DNA of 64,000 nt from Hyphococcus sp. Lineage in GTDB: Bacteria > Pseudomonadota > Alphaproteobacteria > Caulobacterales > Parvularculaceae. Made by a program: the position numbers and the translations under genes. Positions within the stretch are counted from its first letter, which is position 1, and each line of letters begins with the position of its first letter. Location of the stretch: positions 248,001 through 312,000 of the forward strand of contig JANQRY010000006.1 in assembly GCA_028284345.1 (NCBI GenBank). The letters run 5' to 3'. Shown one piece after another: positions 8,034-19,504 of the stretch. The notes beneath the pieces were generated by a model. It had not been told where the DNA came from. It did not search any database and saw only the letters and a program-made list of their open reading frames with translations.

Positions 8034-8109
8034 GGGCCCATAGCTCAGTTGGTAGAGCAACTGACTTTTAATCAGTAGGTCGAAGGTTCGAATCCTTCTG
8101 GGCTCACCA
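8034..8109 (+). tRNA. tRNA-Lys (TTT)
   Basis: A 76-base cloverleaf: acceptor GGGCCCA pairs with TGGGCTC, the D arm has AGCTCAGTTGGTAGAGC, the anticodon loop is CTTTTAA with anticodon TTT, the T arm has GGTTCGAATCC, and CCA is encoded. Bases from 8065 onward are repeated exactly at 19458-19504, so this gene is the integration site of the genomic island. The gene remains complete because the island supplies the same 3' half. Confidence 0.97.
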
Positions 8110-8111
8110 AA
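8065..8111 (+). repeat. Left attachment repeat, within tRNA-Lys
   Basis: 47 bases from the anticodon arm of tRNA-Lys through CCA and two more bases, identical to 19458-19504. It marks the tRNA-proximal end of the island. Confidence 0.93.
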
Positions 8112-8172: not shown

Positions 8173-8194
8173 ATTTGGAAGCAATTTGGAAGCA
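8173..8194 (+). repeat. Left integrase arm-type repeat pair
   Basis: Two tandem copies of ATTTGGAAGCA (11 bases), starting 62 bases inside the left attachment repeat. The same 22 bases occur in the same orientation at 19305-19326 near the right end. Tandem short repeats inside both att ends are typical of the arm sites bound by the N-terminal domain of tyrosine integrases. Confidence 0.7.
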
Positions 8195-8361: not shown

Positions 8362-11300
8362 ATGAAGCAGTATTCTGAGTCGCCGCGCAAATATTTTGAA
8401 CGATCGGTGCCAGTCAATAATCTGCCTTTACAGCGTTTAGCGCTCGCGAGCGTTTCAGTTCTCGCGATTTCGACCATATCCACTCAGTCCATGGCGCAAT
8501 GCGAACCCGATCCGCCGGAAGATGGGGATGAAGTTGTTTGTGAAGGTGTGGATGACGATGGTTTTCAAGCTTTTGCTCCAAATATTAGATTCATAGTTGA
8601 AAATGATGGGTCGATAATTGTTGATGGCGAACGTGCGGTTCGGATTTTCTCTCCCGGTGGAACGTTTGCAAATTTCGGAGTTATTGAGGGAACCTCTACA
8701 ATTGGCGACCCACTCGTTGAGTTGCAGGGGTCGAGTCTTGCTCCCCCGCTTACAGGAAGCAATCACGGAATAATCCATTCTGGGCCTCTATTCGGATCTG
8801 CATTAGTTTTATTTTCAGGCGTGAGCGACTTTGAAAATGCTGTTGGCGCTACAATCAGTGTCGATGCTGAAGGGCAATTCGATAGCTCCGCGGCTGTTGT
8901 TTTGGATCAAAGCTTTCGAGGAGCCTTTACTAATAGCGGTTCGATATCATCGAATACTCTCGTTGCATTATCTGTGCCGACTTTTTCACAAATTACTGAA
9001 CAGCGCGATGTTGAAATAATAAACACCGAGACAGGAACAATTATCAGCGAAAATGGAGTTGCGGCTGCAATTGGGGCGGCACAATTTTCTAACAGCGGAT
9101 TGGTTCGAGGTGTTGTTGGCGTTGAAGCATACGCCTTTTCCACGTTTATAAATGAAGAAATCGGAATAGTAGAATCAATTTCGCCTGTATCCACATCAAT
9201 CTTCGAATCATTCAGTGTCGTCGCGAATAGCGCAACCATTATAAACTACGGAACGATTTTTGGTGGGCCACAATCTATCCGAGGTAACAATTCGATCATT
9301 GAAAACCATGGCGAGATAATTGGCGATCTTCTCCTTACGCAAGTTCACATCATGAACACCGGATTGATTGACGGCTCCATTTTTTCTGAATTCGGTGGGC
9401 TAGAAATTGAAAATGTTGGCGAAATTTTGGGTGATATAATATCTGGCACAGGTTCAAGCGTTTTTGTAGATCAAATAGATGTCTTTCGGAATGTCGGCGG
9501 AACGATAACTGGCCGAGTAGATTTGGGCCCGGGTGATGATTTTGTCCTTGCTACGCAGGATGCAGATCGCGGAGTAATTCAAGGCGGCATTGATGCAGGC
9601 GACGGATTGGATTCGTTTGGTTACTCAGTAACCGGAATCGAAGATGTATCACTTGAGTTAGAGCCGGGATTTGAAGGGCATGCAGTCGAATCTCGATATG
9701 ACGAAAGCGTTGCAAATATCATTTCGACGGACACAACCCTAGACCATACCCTTTCGCTATTTGGAAATGGAACAATCGTAAATGGCGCGGATATCAACGT
9801 CTCAAATGGTGATGCAGTACGCTTGTTGAGCCGAGTCGCAGATTTTTGCTGTAGTCAACCGGAGCCACTTTTCCGCAATCCATTTGGCGAAGGCGTAACG
9901 TTTATCAACAACGCAGTGATTTCAAGTAATGCTGGGGCTGCGATAACGACGTTACCGACGAGTCCCGATGGGTCGGGCCCAATCGGCAATGAACGCATCG
10001 AAAATCGAAATACAATCAATGGCGATGTGTTTCTCGGTGCTGGCGACGATATTCTCATTAACCGAGGAATTGTTAACGGTGCCATCCATTTAGGAATCGG
10101 TGATGATTTCTTTCTTACTGACATTAATGCGGTAGGACCAATGCACGGCCCTCTTTTCGTCGATGATGGCTGTTGCAGCGCCATTGATTCAATCGGAATC
10201 TATACTGACCAAAATGCCTCAGCCACTATTGGCGTGTCCGGCGACTTCAATTCGGCTGGCGTGTTTGTTGATGGCGAGAATACAGTGCTCACAATTACTG
10301 GCATCACACCCGGCGAGGAATTGCCAATGCTCCGGGTGCTGGGCAACGGCTCCGTTGTTAATAATGCTCCCGTTGTTGCGCCGGGCATTTCCAGAAACGA
10401 AATCGGAATTGAACTGTTAAGTAATGGGCTGCAGTTTACGAACAATGCCTCGATCACTGCAGGTACGAGCATTCAACTGGGTGGTGACCATCAAACGGTA
10501 GTGAATAACGCTGATTTTGCAGGCGATAATTTTGCTAGGTTTGATGAAGTATTTCTACGCGACCTAGGCGCGGGTAATACGATCATTAATAATGCCGACC
10601 TTTCATTTGCGCGAATTGAAGTTGGCCAAATCTTTAATGGCAGATTGATTGAAGAACTGGTGCTGAGTGGTGCCAACTTGCCCGAATCATCAATTATCAA
10701 TAACGGCGACGTGAATTTCGTAGGCATCACGTCAGAACTACCGGTGAGCTTACAAAATTTCGGCGAAATAAATACGGTTTTAGCCAATCCTCAATTGGGA
10801 GGCGTTCGTATTGAAAATCTGGATGGTGGCACGATCCGCAGCGTCACGATCTTCGCAGAATTCGCCGAATCGGGATTTTTGCTCAGTGAACCAATTATTA
10901 CGGCGACATTGATAAATCGGTCGGGCGGCTTGATCGGACCGAGCGACGATAACTTTTTTGCACCAGCGGCAATTGAAATTTTTTCGGGCAGCGACGCTGA
11001 TAATTCGGTCCCAATGATCAATTTTTTTATCGATAATGAAGAGGGTGCAATTATTTCTGGCGGTTCCCGTAGCGCGATAGATTATGTCACGACATTTAGC
11101 GATGATAGGCTTGGCTTGTTTATTAACAACAATGGAGACATCATTAGCGAAAGTACGGACCCTACAATTATGGGGCGTGATTTTGTTCTTTCGGAAGGCG
11201 AAGGTGTTGCGATCCACAATAACGGAATAATCCGAAATGCTCTTGTTGATGGCGAATCAATTGCAATACAAACTGAGACAACAGACGATCTAATCGTAAA

Positions 11301-13077
11301 TAGTGGTGAGATTTTCGGGAACGTCTTACTGGGCGGTGGGAACGATTCGTTTACGGTTGTTTTCGGGAGTCGAATTGTCGGTTCCGTTGATGGTGGTGCC
11401 GAATTTGATATTCTTTCCTTTGACAACATCTCAGGGGATTTGCTTGTCAGCCAGTTCAACGATTTCGAACGTCTCGATATTTCGACAAACACAGTTGCCG
11501 TGATAAATGACAGCGCCGACCTCAGCACTTCGTTCACTGAGCTGGTATTACGCGAAGGTTTAACACGTCTGGAAACAGAACTTTCCCTTGATGCAATAAT
11601 TCTCGAAAAGGGCATTCTCGGCGGCAACGGTATAATCGTCGGCAACGTAACAAATTTCGGCACGATTGCTCCCGGCGCTAGTATCGGCGAAATGACCATA
11701 AACGGCGACTTAACGTTGGCCACCAACTCGGTTCTGAACATTGAATTTGATGACAGCGAGAGTGACGTACTTACGGTTTTAGGCGGCGTTTCGATTGATG
11801 ATGCAACTCTTGAATTCACATCACTTGGAGCAAACCTTTCATCGGTTCATTCTTTTGAGTTCCTAACCGCCAATTCGGTGAGCGGACAATTCTCCGATAT
11901 CTCTTTCAATGGTTTTACGGGTTTTGCTGACCTCGTATTTGCCAATGGGGTGCTTGGCGTAACGATCACGCCTCAATTCGAGTTTTCACCGTCTCTTACG
12001 GCGAACTCGGTATCGGTTGCAGGTTATCTAAACGATTTGATTGTTGCAGATGCCGTGAACACCAGCGCCGAAAAAATAGTTTCTACTCTGTTTTCCTTAT
12101 CAGCAAACAATGCAGCGCTTAATGCCGCCATGCTTTCACTACAGCCCGAGGCATTTGCCGCGACGGCTGCAATCAGCGTTGAAAAGGTGGTCCTTATAAA
12201 CGATGTAATTAGAGATCGGACCAAAATCGATAATTATCGAGAGGATGGAAAATATTTCTGGCTCTCGGGGGCGGGCGGTTTTGCGAATTATGAGGGCGAC
12301 CTAGGCGGCGACGGAACCTCAAGTTTCACAACAAATAGTCGTAGCGTAATCGGCGGTGCGGAAATTGTACGCGGCGATGCATTGATTGGCATTTATGGCG
12401 GAAAAGTCGAAAGCGAACAGGACCTTCGTACAGGTCTTTCTCAGACAGAAGCCGACGGGTTCGTAACCGGAGGATACGGTGCTTGGCGCATCGGGGAATT
12501 CAGCAACATGGCGTCAATCGGATATGTCTTTGGCGAAGCCGAAACAGTCCGTGACATTCCAGCTTTATCGGAACAGTTGCAGTCAGATTACGATCTCGAT
12601 TCTTTTACGGCGCAGGCTCGATCCCAATACGATTTCACCGTGAATGGCCTGCTTTTATCACCTTATGCCGGCGCGACCTTTGTGCGCTCGGACCGCGGTG
12701 TGGTCGTTGAGACGGGAGGAGCATCGGCGCTTCACGTTTCCGATCAAAGTGAAAGCTTTCTCTTTCTCGATGTCGGTAGCGCAATCGAAAAACAATTTTC
12801 TATCAACGACCGGACGAAGGCGCGCGCTGCTTTCTCTGCCGGATGGCGATATGAAGCGCTTGGTCACTCCATCGACGCCTATTCCTCGATCGGAATGGAT
12901 GGCCCATTCAATTTGGCTGGAGCCGCCGCTGAATTCGATCGTAGCCGCCTCATAGTGGGGGGTGATGGATCAGTTGATATCGGAGAGAATATTTTTGTCT
13001 TTGCGAGTTATCGCGGAGAATTTGGCGGTGACTACACAAGCAATCGAGTAAGCGGTGGACTCGCGGTTAGATTTTAA
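8362..13077 (+). CDS. Autotransporter outer membrane protein
   Basis: Type Va secreted protein of 1571 residues. A long N-terminal region with a hydrophobic stretch (about 24-46, ending SMAQ) is the Sec signal. The mature part begins with two Cys in CEPDPPEDGDEVVCEG, common in alphaproteobacterial autotransporters. The passenger (about 50-1220) is built of beta-helix-like repeats with N-x-G-x-I-x-G turns and several G-x-GDD-x-F/I motifs. Two vicinal Cys pairs (FCCSQ, GCCSA) are unusual. The beta-domain (about 1290-1571) starts near FWLSGAGGFANYEGD and ends in SGGLAVRF, with the terminal Phe needed for outer membrane insertion. It is probably a surface adhesin-like protein; the ligand is unknown. 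It is AT-richer than core genes and is the largest cargo gene of the island. Confidence 0.92.
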   Translation: MKQYSESPRKYFERSVPVNNLPLQRLALASVSVLAISTISTQSMAQCEPDPPEDGDEVVCEGVDDDGFQAFAPNIRFIVENDGSIIVDGERAVRIFSPGGTFANFGVIEGTSTIGDPLVELQGSSLAPPLTGSNHGIIHSGPLFGSALVLFSGVSDFENAVGATISVDAEGQFDSSAAVVLDQSFRGAFTNSGSISSNTLVALSVPTFSQITEQRDVEIINTETGTIISENGVAAAIGAAQFSNSGLVRGVVGVEAYAFSTFINEEIGIVESISPVSTSIFESFSVVANSATIINYGTIFGGPQSIRGNNSIIENHGEIIGDLLLTQVHIMNTGLIDGSIFSEFGGLEIENVGEILGDIISGTGSSVFVDQIDVFRNVGGTITGRVDLGPGDDFVLATQDADRGVIQGGIDAGDGLDSFGYSVTGIEDVSLELEPGFEGHAVESRYDESVANIISTDTTLDHTLSLFGNGTIVNGADINVSNGDAVRLLSRVADFCCSQPEPLFRNPFGEGVTFINNAVISSNAGAAITTLPTSPDGSGPIGNERIENRNTINGDVFLGAGDDILINRGIVNGAIHLGIGDDFFLTDINAVGPMHGPLFVDDGCCSAIDSIGIYTDQNASATIGVSGDFNSAGVFVDGENTVLTITGITPGEELPMLRVLGNGSVVNNAPVVAPGISRNEIGIELLSNGLQFTNNASITAGTSIQLGGDHQTVVNNADFAGDNFARFDEVFLRDLGAGNTIINNADLSFARIEVGQIFNGRLIEELVLSGANLPESSIINNGDVNFVGITSELPVSLQNFGEINTVLANPQLGGVRIENLDGGTIRSVTIFAEFAESGFLLSEPIITATLINRSGGLIGPSDDNFFAPAAIEIFSGSDADNSVPMINFFIDNEEGAIISGGSRSAIDYVTTFSDDRLGLFINNNGDIISESTDPTIMGRDFVLSEGEGVAIHNNGIIRNALVDGESIAIQTETTDDLIVNSGEIFGNVLLGGGNDSFTVVFGSRIVGSVDGGAEFDILSFDNISGDLLVSQFNDFERLDISTNTVAVINDSADLSTSFTELVLREGLTRLETELSLDAIILEKGILGGNGIIVGNVTNFGTIAPGASIGEMTINGDLTLATNSVLNIEFDDSESDVLTVLGGVSIDDATLEFTSLGANLSSVHSFEFLTANSVSGQFSDISFNGFTGFADLVFANGVLGVTITPQFEFSPSLTANSVSVAGYLNDLIVADAVNTSAEKIVSTLFSLSANNAALNAAMLSLQPEAFAATAAISVEKVVLINDVIRDRTKIDNYREDGKYFWLSGAGGFANYEGDLGGDGTSSFTTNSRSVIGGAEIVRGDALIGIYGGKVESEQDLRTGLSQTEADGFVTGGYGAWRIGEFSNMASIGYVFGEAETVRDIPALSEQLQSDYDLDSFTAQARSQYDFTVNGLLLSPYAGATFVRSDRGVVVETGGASALHVSDQSESFLFLDVGSAIEKQFSINDRTKARAAFSAGWRYEALGHSIDAYSSIGMDGPFNLAGAAAEFDRSRLIVGGDGSVDIGENIFVFASYRGEFGGDYTSNRVSGGLAVRF

Positions 13078-13372: not shown

Positions 13373-14677
13373 GTGACGAAAAAATCAGCACCATGGCTAG
13401 ATTGTTGGAGCGTTGAAAGAACGTTAAGTCGAGGCGGACAAGGAATCACTAAAATCGTTCGGAACAAAAACTCCTCAAATGTGGGAGTTCTGAAAGTTTT
13501 ATTGCCGCAATTCGAAAAAAATATGCGACGGCGCAGTTTAATGCTGCGAGAAGTTACGGCGTTGAAGTCAATAATAGAGGTAGAAGGGATCCCGCGCGTT
13601 CTAGACGATAATGTTGAGAGTTGGCGCGATGCCGACATTCCACTCTATTTCGTTATGGAGTTCATTGAGGGTCCAACACTTCAAGAATTGATTGAGAGAA
13701 ACTCGATCGATGTGGAAACTTGTATTACGTTCGGGGCGCGCCTCTTCGAGATTCTGGAGCAACTTCACGAGGTTGGAATTGTTCACAGAGACTTGAAACC
13801 AAATAATGTAATATTGAAACAAGGATCGGCGAAGAACCCACACATAGTAGATTTCGGCCAAAATTTTACATTTCTCGAAAATGGCGAATCTGTCGAAACT
13901 CCTCCAAACGAACAGATTGGCAATCGTTTTTTAGCCTTGCCAGAATTGCAAAGGGATGGAAGTTACAAACGTGACCCCAGGTCCGATGTAACTTGTGCCG
14001 CCGGCCTGGTATTCTTCGGGCTAACTGGAGTAACGCCACGAGTTCTTCAGGACGAAAAAGGTCGTCTGCCTCATCAAACTGTTAACCTGTCGGAAGAAGC
14101 GTTTTGCTTGAAATCGTTTTTCGATCGATCTTTTCAATTGCCTGTTGATCAAAGGTGGCAGTCAGCAAAGACCGCGCATCAGGCGCTTTCTGCTCTTCTC
14201 GATAAATCTGAGCCAGCAATAAACACTGAGGCGATTATTGAGAAGATAAATAGCTCTGTTGTGGCTGATTCAACGCTACAAAAACAAAAAAGCGTTAAAC
14301 AGGTTTTAGAGCGCATCGTTGGTTGTATAGGTCGAACAGTGCAGCGTATCGTCAAAGAAGTTGGAGACGGGAATTTTCAATACACGCAAGGGGGGCGTCG
14401 ATTCGACTTGGAACGCTACTTGGTGGAGGATCAAATAGGCGTTAGTTTGCACGGCGATTCGAGCCGTCGATGTTTCCCTCAGTGGAAAGCGGAATTAACC
14501 GGGTCTGAGGTTGTTGTTAGTTTTCTCGCTAGAGGAGTGCGAACAGAAGTTTATCGAGTTCCGATGTCGGCTGCAGATGATCTAGATGATTTGAGCAATA
14601 GCGTGCGGGACACGATGATTCAATTGATTGAAGTCTGGCTGAATGACGGTTCCAGGGGGCTTGGAAGCCAGAAATAA
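13373..14677 (+). CDS. Ser/Thr protein kinase with unknown C-terminal domain
   Basis: Cytoplasmic eukaryotic-like protein kinase of 434 residues with no membrane segment. All key elements are present: the glycine loop LSRGGQG (19-24), the ATP-anchoring Lys41, Glu60 in the C helix, HRDLKPNN (138-145) with catalytic Asp140 and Asn145, DFG at 160-162, and a PE motif in LPELQR. Residues from about 285 onward are not kinase-like and match nothing I recognise; they may sense a signal or a phage product. It follows the autotransporter after 295 bases on the same strand, but the gap suggests its own promoter. The start is GTG 13373 with only a weak ribosome binding site. Soluble kinases in islands are known in anti-phage defence (for example staphylococcal Stk2); that role here is a hypothesis. 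Confidence 0.87.
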   Translation: MTKKSAPWLDCWSVERTLSRGGQGITKIVRNKNSSNVGVLKVLLPQFEKNMRRRSLMLREVTALKSIIEVEGIPRVLDDNVESWRDADIPLYFVMEFIEGPTLQELIERNSIDVETCITFGARLFEILEQLHEVGIVHRDLKPNNVILKQGSAKNPHIVDFGQNFTFLENGESVETPPNEQIGNRFLALPELQRDGSYKRDPRSDVTCAAGLVFFGLTGVTPRVLQDEKGRLPHQTVNLSEEAFCLKSFFDRSFQLPVDQRWQSAKTAHQALSALLDKSEPAINTEAIIEKINSSVVADSTLQKQKSVKQVLERIVGCIGRTVQRIVKEVGDGNFQYTQGGRRFDLERYLVEDQIGVSLHGDSSRRCFPQWKAELTGSEVVVSFLARGVRTEVYRVPMSAADDLDDLSNSVRDTMIQLIEVWLNDGSRGLGSQK

Positions 14678-14849: not shown

Positions 14850-15107
14850 TTACGGCGGAGCAATACAAAGTTTTCCGGCCAATAGCATTGTCTCGCCCCG
14901 CCGGATCATTACTTGAAAATCGCCGCCGCCGTGTTGGTCGCGCAAATCGTCGAATAAGCGAGGATAGGGCACGCCTTTAATTATAGACGGTCGTAATGGT
15001 TTTCCGTCTTTGATGCGATAAATATAACATCGATCCTGCTCTTCCGCATTTTCTATCAAATAGAAAAACGTCCCCATAAGTTCGTCGTCATTAAATATAT
15101 CTCGCAT
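14850..15107 (-). CDS. Small conserved-looking island protein of unknown function
   Basis: An 85-residue protein starting MRDIFNDDELMGTFFYLIEN. It has no signal peptide or membrane segment, and I do not recognise the family. GAGAGGG sits seven bases before the ATG, which supports translation. It is the last gene of the minus-strand mobility module, after the Rep-like gene and the iteron array, so it may belong to replication or mobilization. Confidence rests on the ribosome binding site, the balanced residue composition and the position. Confidence 0.55.
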   Translation of the reverse strand: MRDIFNDDELMGTFFYLIENAEEQDRCYIYRIKDGKPLRPSIIKGVPYPRLFDDLRDQHGGGDFQVMIRRGETMLLAGKLCIAPP

Positions 15108-15348
15108 CGGGAAGCCCTCTCAATTTGTCGTTAATCAGACTTATGCAGGCCACTGTGTTCACGGCTGTGTCAGAAACTGTGTTCTTGTCTGTGTTTCTGT
15201 CTGTGTCGGTATCTGTGTTGGCGACACAGAAGCTATAGAGGAGGCCAGCGCGGCTATTACTGCCTGCATTATGTTTTGAGTTGCGCGGCCAATTCAGTAC
15301 GGCGTTTTGAATATCGCTCAACGAAGCCCGCCGACCTCGAATAGTCAT
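15091..15348 (-). CDS. Doubtful overlapping ORF across the iteron array
   Basis: An 85-codon ORF that overlaps the 3' end of the Rep-like gene by 80 bases and the start of the next gene by 17. Its middle reads as a four-residue repeat (NTDTDTDRNTDKNTV) because the DNA below is an exact 12-base iteron array. The overlap pattern could allow coupled translation, but an ORF kept open by a 12-base repeat is expected by chance. I regard the DNA repeat as the functional feature. Confidence 0.2.
   Translation of the reverse strand: MTIRGRRASLSDIQNAVLNWPRNSKHNAGSNSRAGLLYSFCVANTDTDTDRNTDKNTVSDTAVNTVACISLINDKLRGLPDARYI
15153..15229. repeat. Six 12-bp iterons plus one inverted copy
   Basis: CTGTGT occurs at 15153, 15165, 15177, 15189, 15201 and 15213, exactly every 12 bases, with the six bases between copies varying. 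An inverted copy, ACACAG, follows at 15224-15229. The array lies 40 bases beyond the stop codon of the Rep_trans/MOB_T-like gene. Regular short repeats beside a replication gene are typical of binding sites for a replication initiator or relaxase (replication origin or oriT). Binding by this Rep protein is inferred. Confidence 0.75.
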
Positions 15349-16408
15349 CCGTCAACAGAAAAACACGATCCCGTGCAAACTGAGAAAAATCTTTCGGATC
15401 AATACCCTCACTCGCCGCCGATGAGAGCAACAGTCCAACCATCTGCTTGTTTAGTCCGTCTGAATATTCTTGCCGCAGCTTGTTTCGCAACACGTCTGAA
15501 AATTCAGCGGTTTGTTGATTGAAATTCAAGCGTTCTACCTCAGCGAGAACAGCGCCCCAAATGGGGTCGAGCGGCCAGCGCGTCCGGTTTTCATCGTGCT
15601 GTGGCGTTTTGAGTTTAAAGCTGTGGGCAAGACACGAATAAATCACGTCTACTTTGTCAGCAAATAAATCCCATGTGCGTGGCTTGATCTTTGTGTCGAG
15701 AAACTTTTTTCCGGCGCGCAATTCAAATCGCCAGATTTTTAGTTCAGCAAAATCATCAACTAGCAAGCCAAGCCTTTGAAGCGCAAATTTGGTATAGAAT
15801 TCTTTCCACAGAGAATCGTTTTTTTCTGAAACCGCTCCTGACTTGTCATATACACACAATTGCTTTCCCGGCATACGGCCAATCCGAGCGTAAGTGAATT
15901 CATCGCCAATACGGATTCGCTCGATGTGCTCAGAAACTTTTGAGCGCGCATGAAATACAAAATTATCGGTATTAAGATGGAAGTCATCTAGGAGAATATC
16001 TATGGCGTAGTCAGCGCGCGGAATGCGCACATCTATGCTTACGAATTGACACCCTAATTCTCGCAAAAATAAGTCGGCTTCCTCTTTCATTTTCAGCGGT
16101 CCGTTAACAGCCAAACCGTGCGCTCGAAATTTTACATGAACAGACCACTGACTTCTCGCGGTCGTTTCCCGAAACTTCCAGATCGCTCCGAGCGGGCCAG
16201 AATGAGCCCGATAAGCGTATCCGCCCTGTCCGCCGGTCGGTTCTACAAACAACTCGGTTCCGTTAAAATTCGTCGGCGAGGCGCGATTTTCAGCTTTGGC
16301 CGTAAGCTGCGCCTTTCCAAGCGCGCCAAGAAATTCTTTTGGTAAGGGGGTGCGATACGATAATTCCAGCGTATCGAAACCTGAGTAGATTATTGGAAGA
16401 TTGCTCAT
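15269..16408 (-). CDS. Rep_trans/MOB_T-like replication initiator or relaxase
   Basis: Protein of 379 residues resembling the replication initiation factor family PF02486, which includes rolling-circle plasmid Rep proteins, filamentous phage replication proteins and the NicK/Orf20 relaxases of ICEBs1 and Tn916. Visible family features are SGFDTLELSYRT at the start, VRIPRADYAIDIL (acidic R-x-D-x-A-x-D type motif), LCVYDKSGAV (the Y-D-K motif with a possible nicking Tyr) and IWRFELRAGKKFL. Assignment is from these motifs and is moderate. ATG 16408 is preferred because the longer frame to 16522 would overlap the DUF736 gene. The gene ends 40 bases from the iteron array, its probable target. It probably nicks and replicates or mobilizes the excised island. 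Confidence 0.65.
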   Translation of the reverse strand: MSNLPIIYSGFDTLELSYRTPLPKEFLGALGKAQLTAKAENRASPTNFNGTELFVEPTGGQGGYAYRAHSGPLGAIWKFRETTARSQWSVHVKFRAHGLAVNGPLKMKEEADLFLRELGCQFVSIDVRIPRADYAIDILLDDFHLNTDNFVFHARSKVSEHIERIRIGDEFTYARIGRMPGKQLCVYDKSGAVSEKNDSLWKEFYTKFALQRLGLLVDDFAELKIWRFELRAGKKFLDTKIKPRTWDLFADKVDVIYSCLAHSFKLKTPQHDENRTRWPLDPIWGAVLAEVERLNFNQQTAEFSDVLRNKLRQEYSDGLNKQMVGLLLSSAASEGIDPKDFSQFARDRVFLLTDDYSRSAGFVERYSKRRTELAAQLKT

Positions 16409-16460: not shown

Positions 16461-16811
16461 TTACTCCGCGTCCTGGCGAAAACGCGACCAGCGAATTTCC
16501 CATTCGCCGGGATTGTCCTCAAACAGAGCGAAATGCAAAGGCTTCTCGAAACTCGGATCGTCGATGGTGCATGAAATCATCGTTTTTCCAGCGTTCGGGC
16601 CTCGACGAATTGTTTTCTCCCAACCCCGGCCTGCTTTCATGTATTCGCGGCTTTGAGGGCGGAGGAAAATATCGTGCGTGGGGTATTCGCCGTCCAACTC
16701 ATCACTGATACGGCGAATACTAATCGGGTACATGAACTCAAGGCTGGTGAGCGTACCCTGCAAGTGTTCGGCAGAGTCATTTTCGGACTTGCCTACATTC
16801 TTCAATGTCAT
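16461..16811 (-). CDS. DUF736 family protein
   Basis: A 116-residue soluble protein whose C-terminal half (KTMISCTIDDPSFEKPLHFA and then WEIRWSRF) matches DUF736, a family frequent on plasmids and conjugative elements of alphaproteobacteria. Its role is not known. AGAGGA lies before the ATG at good spacing. It sits between the HTH gene and the Rep-like gene on the same strand, 52 bases before the latter, and so belongs to the mobility module. Confidence 0.8.
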   Translation of the reverse strand: MTLKNVGKSENDSAEHLQGTLTSLEFMYPISIRRISDELDGEYPTHDIFLRPQSREYMKAGRGWEKTIRRGPNAGKTMISCTIDDPSFEKPLHFALFEDNPGEWEIRWSRFRQDAE

Positions 16812-16977: not shown

Positions 16978-17214
16978 TCAGTCTTCGTATTCTTCGTCAA
17001 AATCACCATCGTCGTCGTCATATTCTGATGTGTGACTCTGGATATTTTTCTCGATAAAATCGTCAAGATCACTCGCGCGATAACGAATGGCCTTTCCGTT
17101 AAGGCGGACAAAATGCGGCCCCCCGCCGCGTGACCGCCAGTTGGCTAGTGTTCTTGGCGATACGCCAAGAACGTCAGCGGCATCATTTTCTGTGAGAAGC
17201 TGGGGCATTTGCAT
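16978..17214 (-). CDS. HTH protein, AlpA/excisionase-like
   Basis: A 78-residue DNA-binding protein of the MerR-superfamily HTH_17 type used by AlpA regulators and excisionases. The helix-turn-helix is ENDAADVLGVSPRTLANWRS (about 9-28), followed by the wing GGGPHFVRLNGKAIRYRASD. The tail is strongly acidic (DDDDGDFDEEYED). Either Met1 or Met3 (17208) can be the start; AAGG lies upstream. Proteins of this kind control integrase genes or direct excision in islands, and the position next to the mobility genes fits. Confidence 0.8.
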   Translation of the reverse strand: MQMPQLLTENDAADVLGVSPRTLANWRSRGGGPHFVRLNGKAIRYRASDLDDFIEKNIQSHTSEYDDDDGDFDEEYED

Positions 17215-17305: not shown

Positions 17306-18094
17306 TTATGGCTCCGAGGAAATATTTTTCCCTGCCTTCTTCCGCTGTCGAGCAATTTCTTTAATCGGCTTAGAGACCATCCCCATACTCGCGTTGGTCT
17401 CGACTAGTCGAAAGCATGCAAAGGCAAACTGGATCATCTCCGATGCCTCACCGTCTTGCCCTTCAAATTTCGAAGAAAATGACCGGCCGAGTATCTCGGT
17501 CCAAAGCTCGACGATATCGTTGACCCAAAAACGTTTGAATTGGTCGAATTTTCGCCCCTTAGAACCTTTTATATTTATCAGCGTAATAGGCTTCAGACCA
17601 GTTATAAATTCATTCAACAGCGGCAACAATCTTGAACCAGGATAAGAATAGACATCTATTCCACCAACATGAGCGACGCTGCGCACGACTGCTATGAACG
17701 CCTGTATTTCATGTATTGTTTGAAGATCATTGTCTGTTTTTTTTGACCCGTCGCTCTGTTTTTTTGTAACACACTCCTCAGAGTGCCAACCTTCTATTTT
17801 CGGTATACCCTCAACAAGAGTTTCAGCAGCTGCAATTAAATCCAGAACGAGTTTTTGCGCCACTCTTTGATTAGGCACTGACTGCAAAACAGTGTTCCGC
17901 TTTCCGTCAATATAATAAGTAGCTATAGCGTCAAGAAATTCCCAAAACCACTCTTTTGTGATTTCAGAGATTTTGAATTCTTTAATTAGCGCATCAATCT
18001 CATTCTCAGCATGGTGGTGGCGGTAAGCTAAAGAACGGCTATGCATGATGCGATATTGCATCCACAAATCTGTTGGCGTTTGACACTCATTCAT
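17306..18094 (-). CDS. Unknown protein translationally coupled to the integrase
   Basis: A 262-residue soluble protein with no family I recognise. It is largely helical in appearance, with a basic C-terminal end (KEIARQRKKAGKNISSEP). Its ATG (18092-18094) overlaps the integrase stop codon (18091-18093) in an ATGA arrangement, so the two are almost certainly translated from one message. It may assist integration or excision, or be cargo that needs to be expressed only with the integrase. AT-richer than the core genes. Confidence 0.6.
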   Translation of the reverse strand: MNECQTPTDLWMQYRIMHSRSLAYRHHHAENEIDALIKEFKISEITKEWFWEFLDAIATYYIDGKRNTVLQSVPNQRVAQKLVLDLIAAAETLVEGIPKIEGWHSEECVTKKQSDGSKKTDNDLQTIHEIQAFIAVVRSVAHVGGIDVYSYPGSRLLPLLNEFITGLKPITLINIKGSKGRKFDQFKRFWVNDIVELWTEILGRSFSSKFEGQDGEASEMIQFAFACFRLVETNASMGMVSKPIKEIARQRKKAGKNISSEP

Positions 18095-19275
18095 TTAATG
18101 ACTCGCAGAAATTTCTTGTTTTTAGAACTCGACTGCATCGTGAGGCTTAACGCGGAAGCTACAGTGTTCGCGGCTTCACGAATTGGTGCGTCTGCGAGGT
18201 GGGAATAGCGAAGCGTCGTCTGATATTGCGTATGCCCAAGTAACTGGCCGACCATTACGAGCGGCATACCGCCAGAAATTGCTTTTGACGCATAGGTATG
18301 TCGCAAGTCATGAATGCGAACGTCTTCCAGGTCAGCCTTTTTACGAATGCGCCGCCATGGTTTGCCGAGGTCGGTAACGGGCTGTCCGGGAATGGTTCCT
18401 TGAAAGACAAAGGCGTTATTGATGGAGCGCGGCAGCGAAGCCAAAATTTTCCTTGCGGCATCCGGCAAGGGAATGGAGCGCTTTCCTGTTTTCGTATCCG
18501 GCAGTTCAAGATGCGTGCTGGTTACATATTCCCATTTGAGATTCTGAATTTCCGACGATCTGCATCCGGTTAGAATGAGCATTCGGAAGGCGGCAACGAC
18601 GAATGCTGATTCGTCACCATTCGCTTCAGATTCAGATAGAATTTCAGATAACCGTATGAGTTCATCATCGGAAAGAAAACGCTCTTTCTTATTTTCTTTG
18701 AAGCGTTGGATGAGACGGCAAGGGTTGGTTCCTTCGGCCCGATAGCCCCACAACTCGGCAAGATTAAACATTTTGGAGAGAACGCTTAGAATGCGGTTCG
18801 CTTGATAGGGACGATCCTTATAGGCTTGGTGCAGCGCCGTTACATCCGCGCGCGTGATGTCTGGAATCTTTAGCGGCCCAAATGCCGGCTTTATCGCGTC
18901 GCGAATTACCTGCCCATAATTGTATTGGCTTTGGGGTTTTAGGTGAACGGAAACATGCTCATCCAAAAAGCGGTCACAAAGAGCTGAAACATTGGGCGTA
19001 AGCCGTCTCTTTCGTCGGGCTTCCGCCGGATCATCGCCGCCGGCGACTTCTCCCAATAGCGTTCGTGCTTGCAACCGCGCGAGATCAGGCGTTAGCGGCC
19101 CCATGGTTCCGATCTTGGCGCGACGGGTCCGCTTGCCAGACCGGTACTGAACAAAGAAAGTTTTTCGTCCCTTCGGCGAAACGCGAAGGCCAAAGCCTTT
19201 CAGTTCGTTGTCCCAATAGAGCCTTTCGGACTTGCAAGCTTTGATCGCATCAACGCGCGACTTGGTGAGCTTCAT
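18091..19275 (-). CDS. Tyrosine recombinase integrase with DUF4102 arm-binding domain
   Basis: Site-specific recombinase of 394 residues of the P4 type that inserts islands into tRNA genes. The N-terminal domain (about 1-90; MKLTKSRVDAIKA, YWDNELKGFGLRVSPKGRKT) is the DUF4102 arm-binding domain. A core-binding SAM-like domain follows (about 95-185), then the catalytic domain with Arg239 (LTGCRSSEIQ), Lys in TKTGK, His322 and Arg325 (IHDLRHTYAS), His348 (LGHTQ) and Tyr357 (TLRYSH). All catalytic residues are intact. The gene starts 182 bases from the right attachment repeat and reads inward. Paired 11-bp repeats at 19305-19326 lie just upstream of its start and may let it regulate itself. Confidence 0.96.
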   Translation of the reverse strand: MKLTKSRVDAIKACKSERLYWDNELKGFGLRVSPKGRKTFFVQYRSGKRTRRAKIGTMGPLTPDLARLQARTLLGEVAGGDDPAEARRKRRLTPNVSALCDRFLDEHVSVHLKPQSQYNYGQVIRDAIKPAFGPLKIPDITRADVTALHQAYKDRPYQANRILSVLSKMFNLAELWGYRAEGTNPCRLIQRFKENKKERFLSDDELIRLSEILSESEANGDESAFVVAAFRMLILTGCRSSEIQNLKWEYVTSTHLELPDTKTGKRSIPLPDAARKILASLPRSINNAFVFQGTIPGQPVTDLGKPWRRIRKKADLEDVRIHDLRHTYASKAISGGMPLVMVGQLLGHTQYQTTLRYSHLADAPIREAANTVASALSLTMQSSSKNKKFLRVIK

Positions 19276-19304: not shown

Positions 19305-19326
19305 ATTTGGAAGCAATTTGGAAGCA
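19305..19326 (+). repeat. Right integrase arm-type repeat pair
   Basis: Two tandem copies of ATTTGGAAGCA, identical to 8173-8194 and in the same orientation, 131 bases inside the right attachment repeat and 29 bases upstream of the integrase start. An imperfect inverted copy (TGCTTCCGAAA) lies at 19293-19303. Confidence 0.7.
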
Positions 19327-19457: not shown

Positions 19458-19504
19458 CTTTTAATCAGTAGGTCGAAGGTTCGAATCCTTCTGGGCTCAC
19501 CAAA
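19458..19504 (+). repeat. Right attachment repeat, tRNA-Lys 3' remnant
   Basis: 47 bases identical to 8065-8111. It is the original 3' part of the chromosomal tRNA-Lys displaced by island insertion. It lacks the 5' half and cannot be a tRNA gene. Confidence 0.93.

Follow-up and report, generated by a model that had tools for sequence, protein, structure and literature searches.

A phased ACACA(C/G) hexamer array accompanies a small gene, independently of the neighbouring Rep_trans gene, on a tRNA-Lys island of Hyphococcus sp.

The window analyzed here is the whole stretch of 64,000 nucleotides from Hyphococcus sp. (contig JANQRY010000006.1, positions 248,001 to 312,000 of the forward strand). 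It possesses an island of 11.4 kb at a tRNA-Lys gene, bounded by identical 47-bp repeats of the tRNA-Lys 3' end. The GC content of the island is near 47%, compared with about 60-70% outside. On its minus strand the order is a tyrosine integrase, a 262-aa protein, a helix-turn-helix (HTH) protein of the HTH_17 type, a DUF736 protein and a Rep protein, followed by an array of short repeats and a small gene (Table 1). The array and its relation to the small gene are the subject of this analysis.

The array is composed of six copies of CTGTGT on the plus strand, starting at 15153, 15165, 15177, 15189, 15201 and 15213, in exact 12-bp steps. On the minus strand, which is the coding strand of the downstream small gene, the hexamer reads ACACAG. 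The original prediction described six exact 12-bp iterons and an inverted copy. The six hexamers, the exact period and the inverted copy were confirmed, but not identity over the full 12 bp; repetition is confined to the hexamer and the six spacer bases differ between units. The inverted copy and its neighbour hexamer form TGTGT-CGCCA-ACACA on the minus strand, and the distance from the inverted copy to the Rep stop (at 15269) is 39 bp. On the other side, about 46 bp separate the array from the start codon of the small open reading frame downstream, which runs in the same direction; this relation was absent from the original prediction. Search of CTGTGT-N6-CTGTGT with at most one mismatch gave 5 matches in the window, all inside the array, where 0.01 were expected. 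Among all hexamers and periods of 7-30, it is the sole strict-phase array with at least four copies in the 64 kb, and the same scan of 40 Markov shuffles gave zero arrays. No AT-rich stretch was found adjoining the array. An 8-bp inverted repeat, ATGCAGGC / GCCTGCAT at 15143-15150 and 15262-15269, lies on both sides of the array, its second arm touching the stop codon of Rep, and may be a chance occurrence.

Relatives were identified by a search with the small protein alone, which gave eight other loci, nine including the window. In all eight the small gene is preceded by an RCACA(C/G)-type array, always oriented alike, and most steps measure 11-13 bp. The array is close upstream in seven of them and 0.54 kb upstream in one (G442). 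Chains of RCACA[CG] had lengths of 2-6 at the nine loci compared with at most 2 in 1000 shuffles of each (P<=0.002 everywhere). Of the genes found, only the small gene was common to all nine. The closest relative, in G606, is a decayed copy with a small protein 73% identical to that of the window. Its array keeps the same 12-bp register, with 31/36 hexamer bases retained versus 13/36 spacer bases; in the inverted arm 10/11 bases are kept. In G004 (L018), the gene immediately after the array is 45% identical to the small gene of the window. The motif subtype, ACACAG or ACACAC, splits with the small-protein tree, once. Pattern search for three in-phase CTGTGT copies found 8 of 385 genomes of the class. 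Spacers vary freely in two of the eight, the window genome and G004; the rest were, by inspection, simple or near-simple repeats. The two genomes with varying spacers are the same two with clear small-gene homologues. Bare array patterns searched in genome and viral contigs were mostly simple tandem repeats, none encoding the small protein. The array of G423, whose contig ends about 130 bp past it, stood outside the small-gene test. By these comparisons the array is real, non-random and conserved as DNA. They also demonstrate, at the level of sequence, its association with the small gene (9/9 of the loci found by protein), its fixed orientation, its spacing of about one helical turn and its independence of Rep.

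Table 1. Coordinates of the array, the small gene and other features of the island in the window.
Feature	Coordinates	Strand	Remarks
Array of six hexamers	15153..15218	-	CTGTGT on +, ACACAG on -; 12-bp period, variable 6-bp spacers
Inverted hexamer	15224..15229	+	ACACAG on +; kept in G606 as CTGTGTCGGCA
Small gene	14850..15107	-	85 aa, unclassified family; GGGDFxxMIRRGETM motif; predicted alpha-beta-beta-alpha-beta-beta, pLDDT (predicted local distance difference test) 95
Rep_trans rolling-circle initiator	15269..16405	-	D132, D136, E228, Y186
DUF736 protein	16461..16811	-	E 1.5e-13
HTH_17 (excisionase-like) protein	16978..17214	-	
Uncharacterised 262-aa protein	17306..18094	-	
Tyrosine integrase	18091..19275	-	Arm-DNA-bind_3 domain; at one island end
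Attachment repeat, 47 bp	8065..8111	+	3' end of intact tRNA-Lys (8034-8109)
Second attachment repeat, 47 bp	19458..19504	+	identical to the first
Putative integrase arm-type sites	8173..8193	+	ATTTGGAAGC twice, 11-bp step
Putative integrase arm-type sites	19305..19325	+	ATTTGGAAGC twice, 11-bp step
Autotransporter	8362..13077	+	1571 aa, largest cargo gene
Ser/Thr kinase cargo	13373..14677	+	best match PD-T4-6 anti-phage kinase models, E 1.6e-98

The small proteins of the relatives are 85-136 aa long in the frames taken. No match was found in Pfam, PHROG or NCBIfam, the last searched with the window member only, and none in plasmids, phages or viral contigs. Weak matches at L206-L208 were set aside for their weak E-values; L206 was read and judged spurious. 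Fold searches gave no convincing match, just middling beta-sandwich matches.

On this basis, we consider it about an even call that the hexamers are the cis-acting DNA array of a two-part module, formed by the array and the small gene just downstream. In such a module, a dimeric or oligomeric DNA-binding protein would bind one hexamer after another, nearly on a single face of the helix, and spread cooperatively. The most economical candidate for the binder would be the small protein itself, because its gene is the only one found at all nine loci, and the array is probably bound cooperatively by it. The complex may autoregulate the promoter or leader of the small gene. It could also be a nucleoprotein site governing stability, copy control or transfer of the excised element. 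The layouts of G442 and of G405:C78, which has a second array downstream of the small gene, suggest a role of the site beyond simple promoter control. A wider proposal is more tentative, and we lean somewhat against it: the small protein may be the founder of a family not described before, its fold unrecognised, whose members read phased ACACA(C/G) arrays ahead of their own genes. Array and protein would then be a self-contained iteron-plus-binder module, which would move among tRNA-integrated islands of the class, several of them with anti-phage genes, independently of the replication genes of these islands, and would control how the islands are maintained or transferred.

Several observations weigh against the two-part module. 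Among the matches listed, no known DNA-binding domain is similar to the predicted fold of the small protein. The split of motif subtypes is a single weakly supported change (53/83), and co-evolution is thus not independently replicated. Just two hexamers are exact in the decayed G606 copy. The nine loci come from two main lineages of the class, and some contigs end near the locus. Simple promoter control fits neither the distance of 0.54 kb in G442 nor the second array of G405:C78. The latter (L228 9775) is composed of three ACACAG with an 11-bp step on the same strand. It lies near a type II restriction-modification pair and SIR2-like and PD-Lambda-2-like genes.

The array might alternatively be a multi-site operator through which the HTH_17 protein, an excisionase-like protein, controls the small gene within an excision programme. 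In five relatives an HTH_17 gene immediately precedes the array, and the window island also carries one; RdfS, the recombination directionality factor of Mesorhizobium integrative and conjugative elements, is also a transcriptional regulator (PMC8627217). However, around the G442 array no HTH_17 gene is present in about 10 kb to one side and 9 kb to the other. None was matched at G004 either, where the HTH read from the sequence is of a different, AlpA-like type. The same ACACAC motif accompanies two different HTH types, while the HTH of the window is nearest to those of ACACAC loci, yet the window motif is ACACAG. Unlike the motif subtype, the HTH types do not follow the small-protein tree. 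We regard this operator as unlikely.

The role of replication or transfer origin, given to the array by the original prediction, depends on the neighbouring Rep gene. The Rep_trans (PF02486) score of that gene in Pfam is below the cutoff. Nevertheless it encodes a genuine Rep_trans protein, as first supposed, because the candidate residues D132, D136, E228 and Y186 are invariant in the Rep alignment (A3) and the predicted model has 4cij as its best fold match (prob 1.00, E 3e-10). By the roles described in PMC5714925, D132, D136 and E228 are presumably metal ligands and Y186 the catalytic tyrosine. A contig search with the Rep query gave no relatives, and those compared below come from genomes of the class. 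An origin for this protein, as iterons or as a bind site, is favored by the closeness of the array to its stop codon, by the presence of both array and Rep in G004, and by the excision features of the island. Against it, the phased RCACA[CG] array was sought at the Rep loci of relatives from 20 other genomes of the class, and none of those examined has it except L018 of G004, which carries the small gene. Conversely, at 7/9 array loci the covered stretch showed neither a Rep_trans nor a DUF736 gene, with about 9-10 kb covered on both sides in L228, L231, L232 and L233, but only 1.3 kb upstream in L238 and 1.2 kb upstream in L230. The position of the array is fixed relative to the small gene and not to Rep; in G004 the order is array, small gene, DUF736 and Rep, with Rep further downstream. 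The lack of an AT-rich neighbour also stands against an origin, as does the nature of Rep_trans origins, which are described as bind and nick sites with a hairpin, the word 'iteron' not being found in the text of the review (PMC5714925). In the loci compared, the array is independent of Rep, a neighbour dispensable for it, and neither a Rep origin nor an origin of transfer is borne out; we consider such an origin quite improbable.

The array could also act at the level of RNA, within the leader of the small-gene mRNA, where for example an RNA-binding protein would recognise the repeated single-stranded ACACA; this reading was judged equally improbable. It would be suited by the array keeping one strand with respect to the gene at all nine loci and lying close to the start of the gene in most. 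The near-helical spacing of 11-13 bp is instead a feature of DNA, the inverted copy and the second downstream array of G405:C78 are hard to explain on RNA, and folding of the leader gave no structure clearly beyond shuffles. A promoter scan upstream of the small gene gave nothing convincing, its best candidate overlapping the start codon. Finally, a coding repeat (NTDx tetrapeptides in an overlapping 85-aa frame, 15091-15348) or a simple-sequence expansion was rejected and keeps almost no probability: one frame is open across the array in the window and at G405:C139 and G452, but it differs from the small-gene frame in the window, the 11- and 13-bp steps of relatives break it, conservation of the hexamer alone is that of DNA and not of protein, and the variable spacers exclude recent tandem expansion.

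The setting of the proposed two-part module is an excisable-looking island, as was proposed, with its 47-bp repeats, integrase and putative arm-type sites. The array itself was tried as integrase arm-type sites and rejected, as it is 4.2 kb from the nearer core and the ATTTGGAAGC pairs near both ends fill this role. The cargo kinase gives a generic Pkinase match in Pfam. The contig of the decayed copy (G606:C81; array and small gene at L238 1226-1704) also possesses tgt and tRNA-Lys, like the window insertion site. The arrays at L265 180 (G423:C131) and L231 10513 (G442) adjoin a divergent large serine recombinase, which resembles the recombinases beside Rep_trans genes in L017 and L024.

Should the small protein prove to bind the array, it would define a new class of array-binding protein, its predicted fold being different from the ribbon-helix-helix of ParR. 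At least three of the islands with the small gene and the array carry anti-phage genes (PD-T4-6 kinase, type I and type II restriction-modification). Such islands can be annotated by a sequence signature, the small gene together with the RCACA[CG] array, and the analysis corrects the tempting view that the array is a Rep origin.

Among known systems, the origins of the satellite islands SaPI (Staphylococcus aureus pathogenicity island) and PICI (phage-inducible chromosomal island) have short iterons near rep. The present locus is similar in that it is part of an integrated island and has short repeats close to rep; however, its Rep class differs and its array is independent of Rep. With Rep_trans/MOB_T initiators (PF02486; PMC5714925) it shares the Rep_trans protein encoded next to the array, but their origins are hairpin-type bind and nick sites, and the array here does not follow Rep. 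The parC/ParR system of plasmid R1 has 11-bp repeats (PMC9426499), and the likeness is that a direct-repeat array of about one helical turn precedes a gene of a mobile element. In contrast to ParR, the small protein is predicted as alpha-bb-alpha-bb, and no ParM-like gene was recognised beside its gene. In R388, the stbDRs are 9-bp direct repeats spaced by 2, situated around the promoter of the gene for the DNA-binding protein StbA (PMC3098194). Here also direct repeats are found by a small gene on a mobile element, with a 12-bp step instead of 11 bp, a 6-bp core and a tRNA-integrated island, and no stbBC genes were recognised. The small protein showed no sequence link to any family in Pfam, NCBIfam or PHROG. 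Direct repeats of about one turn lie upstream of the small gene, as in a StbA/stbDR or ParR/parC module, and stbDRs/StbA of R388 and parC/ParR of R1 are the closest analogues of the proposed array module.
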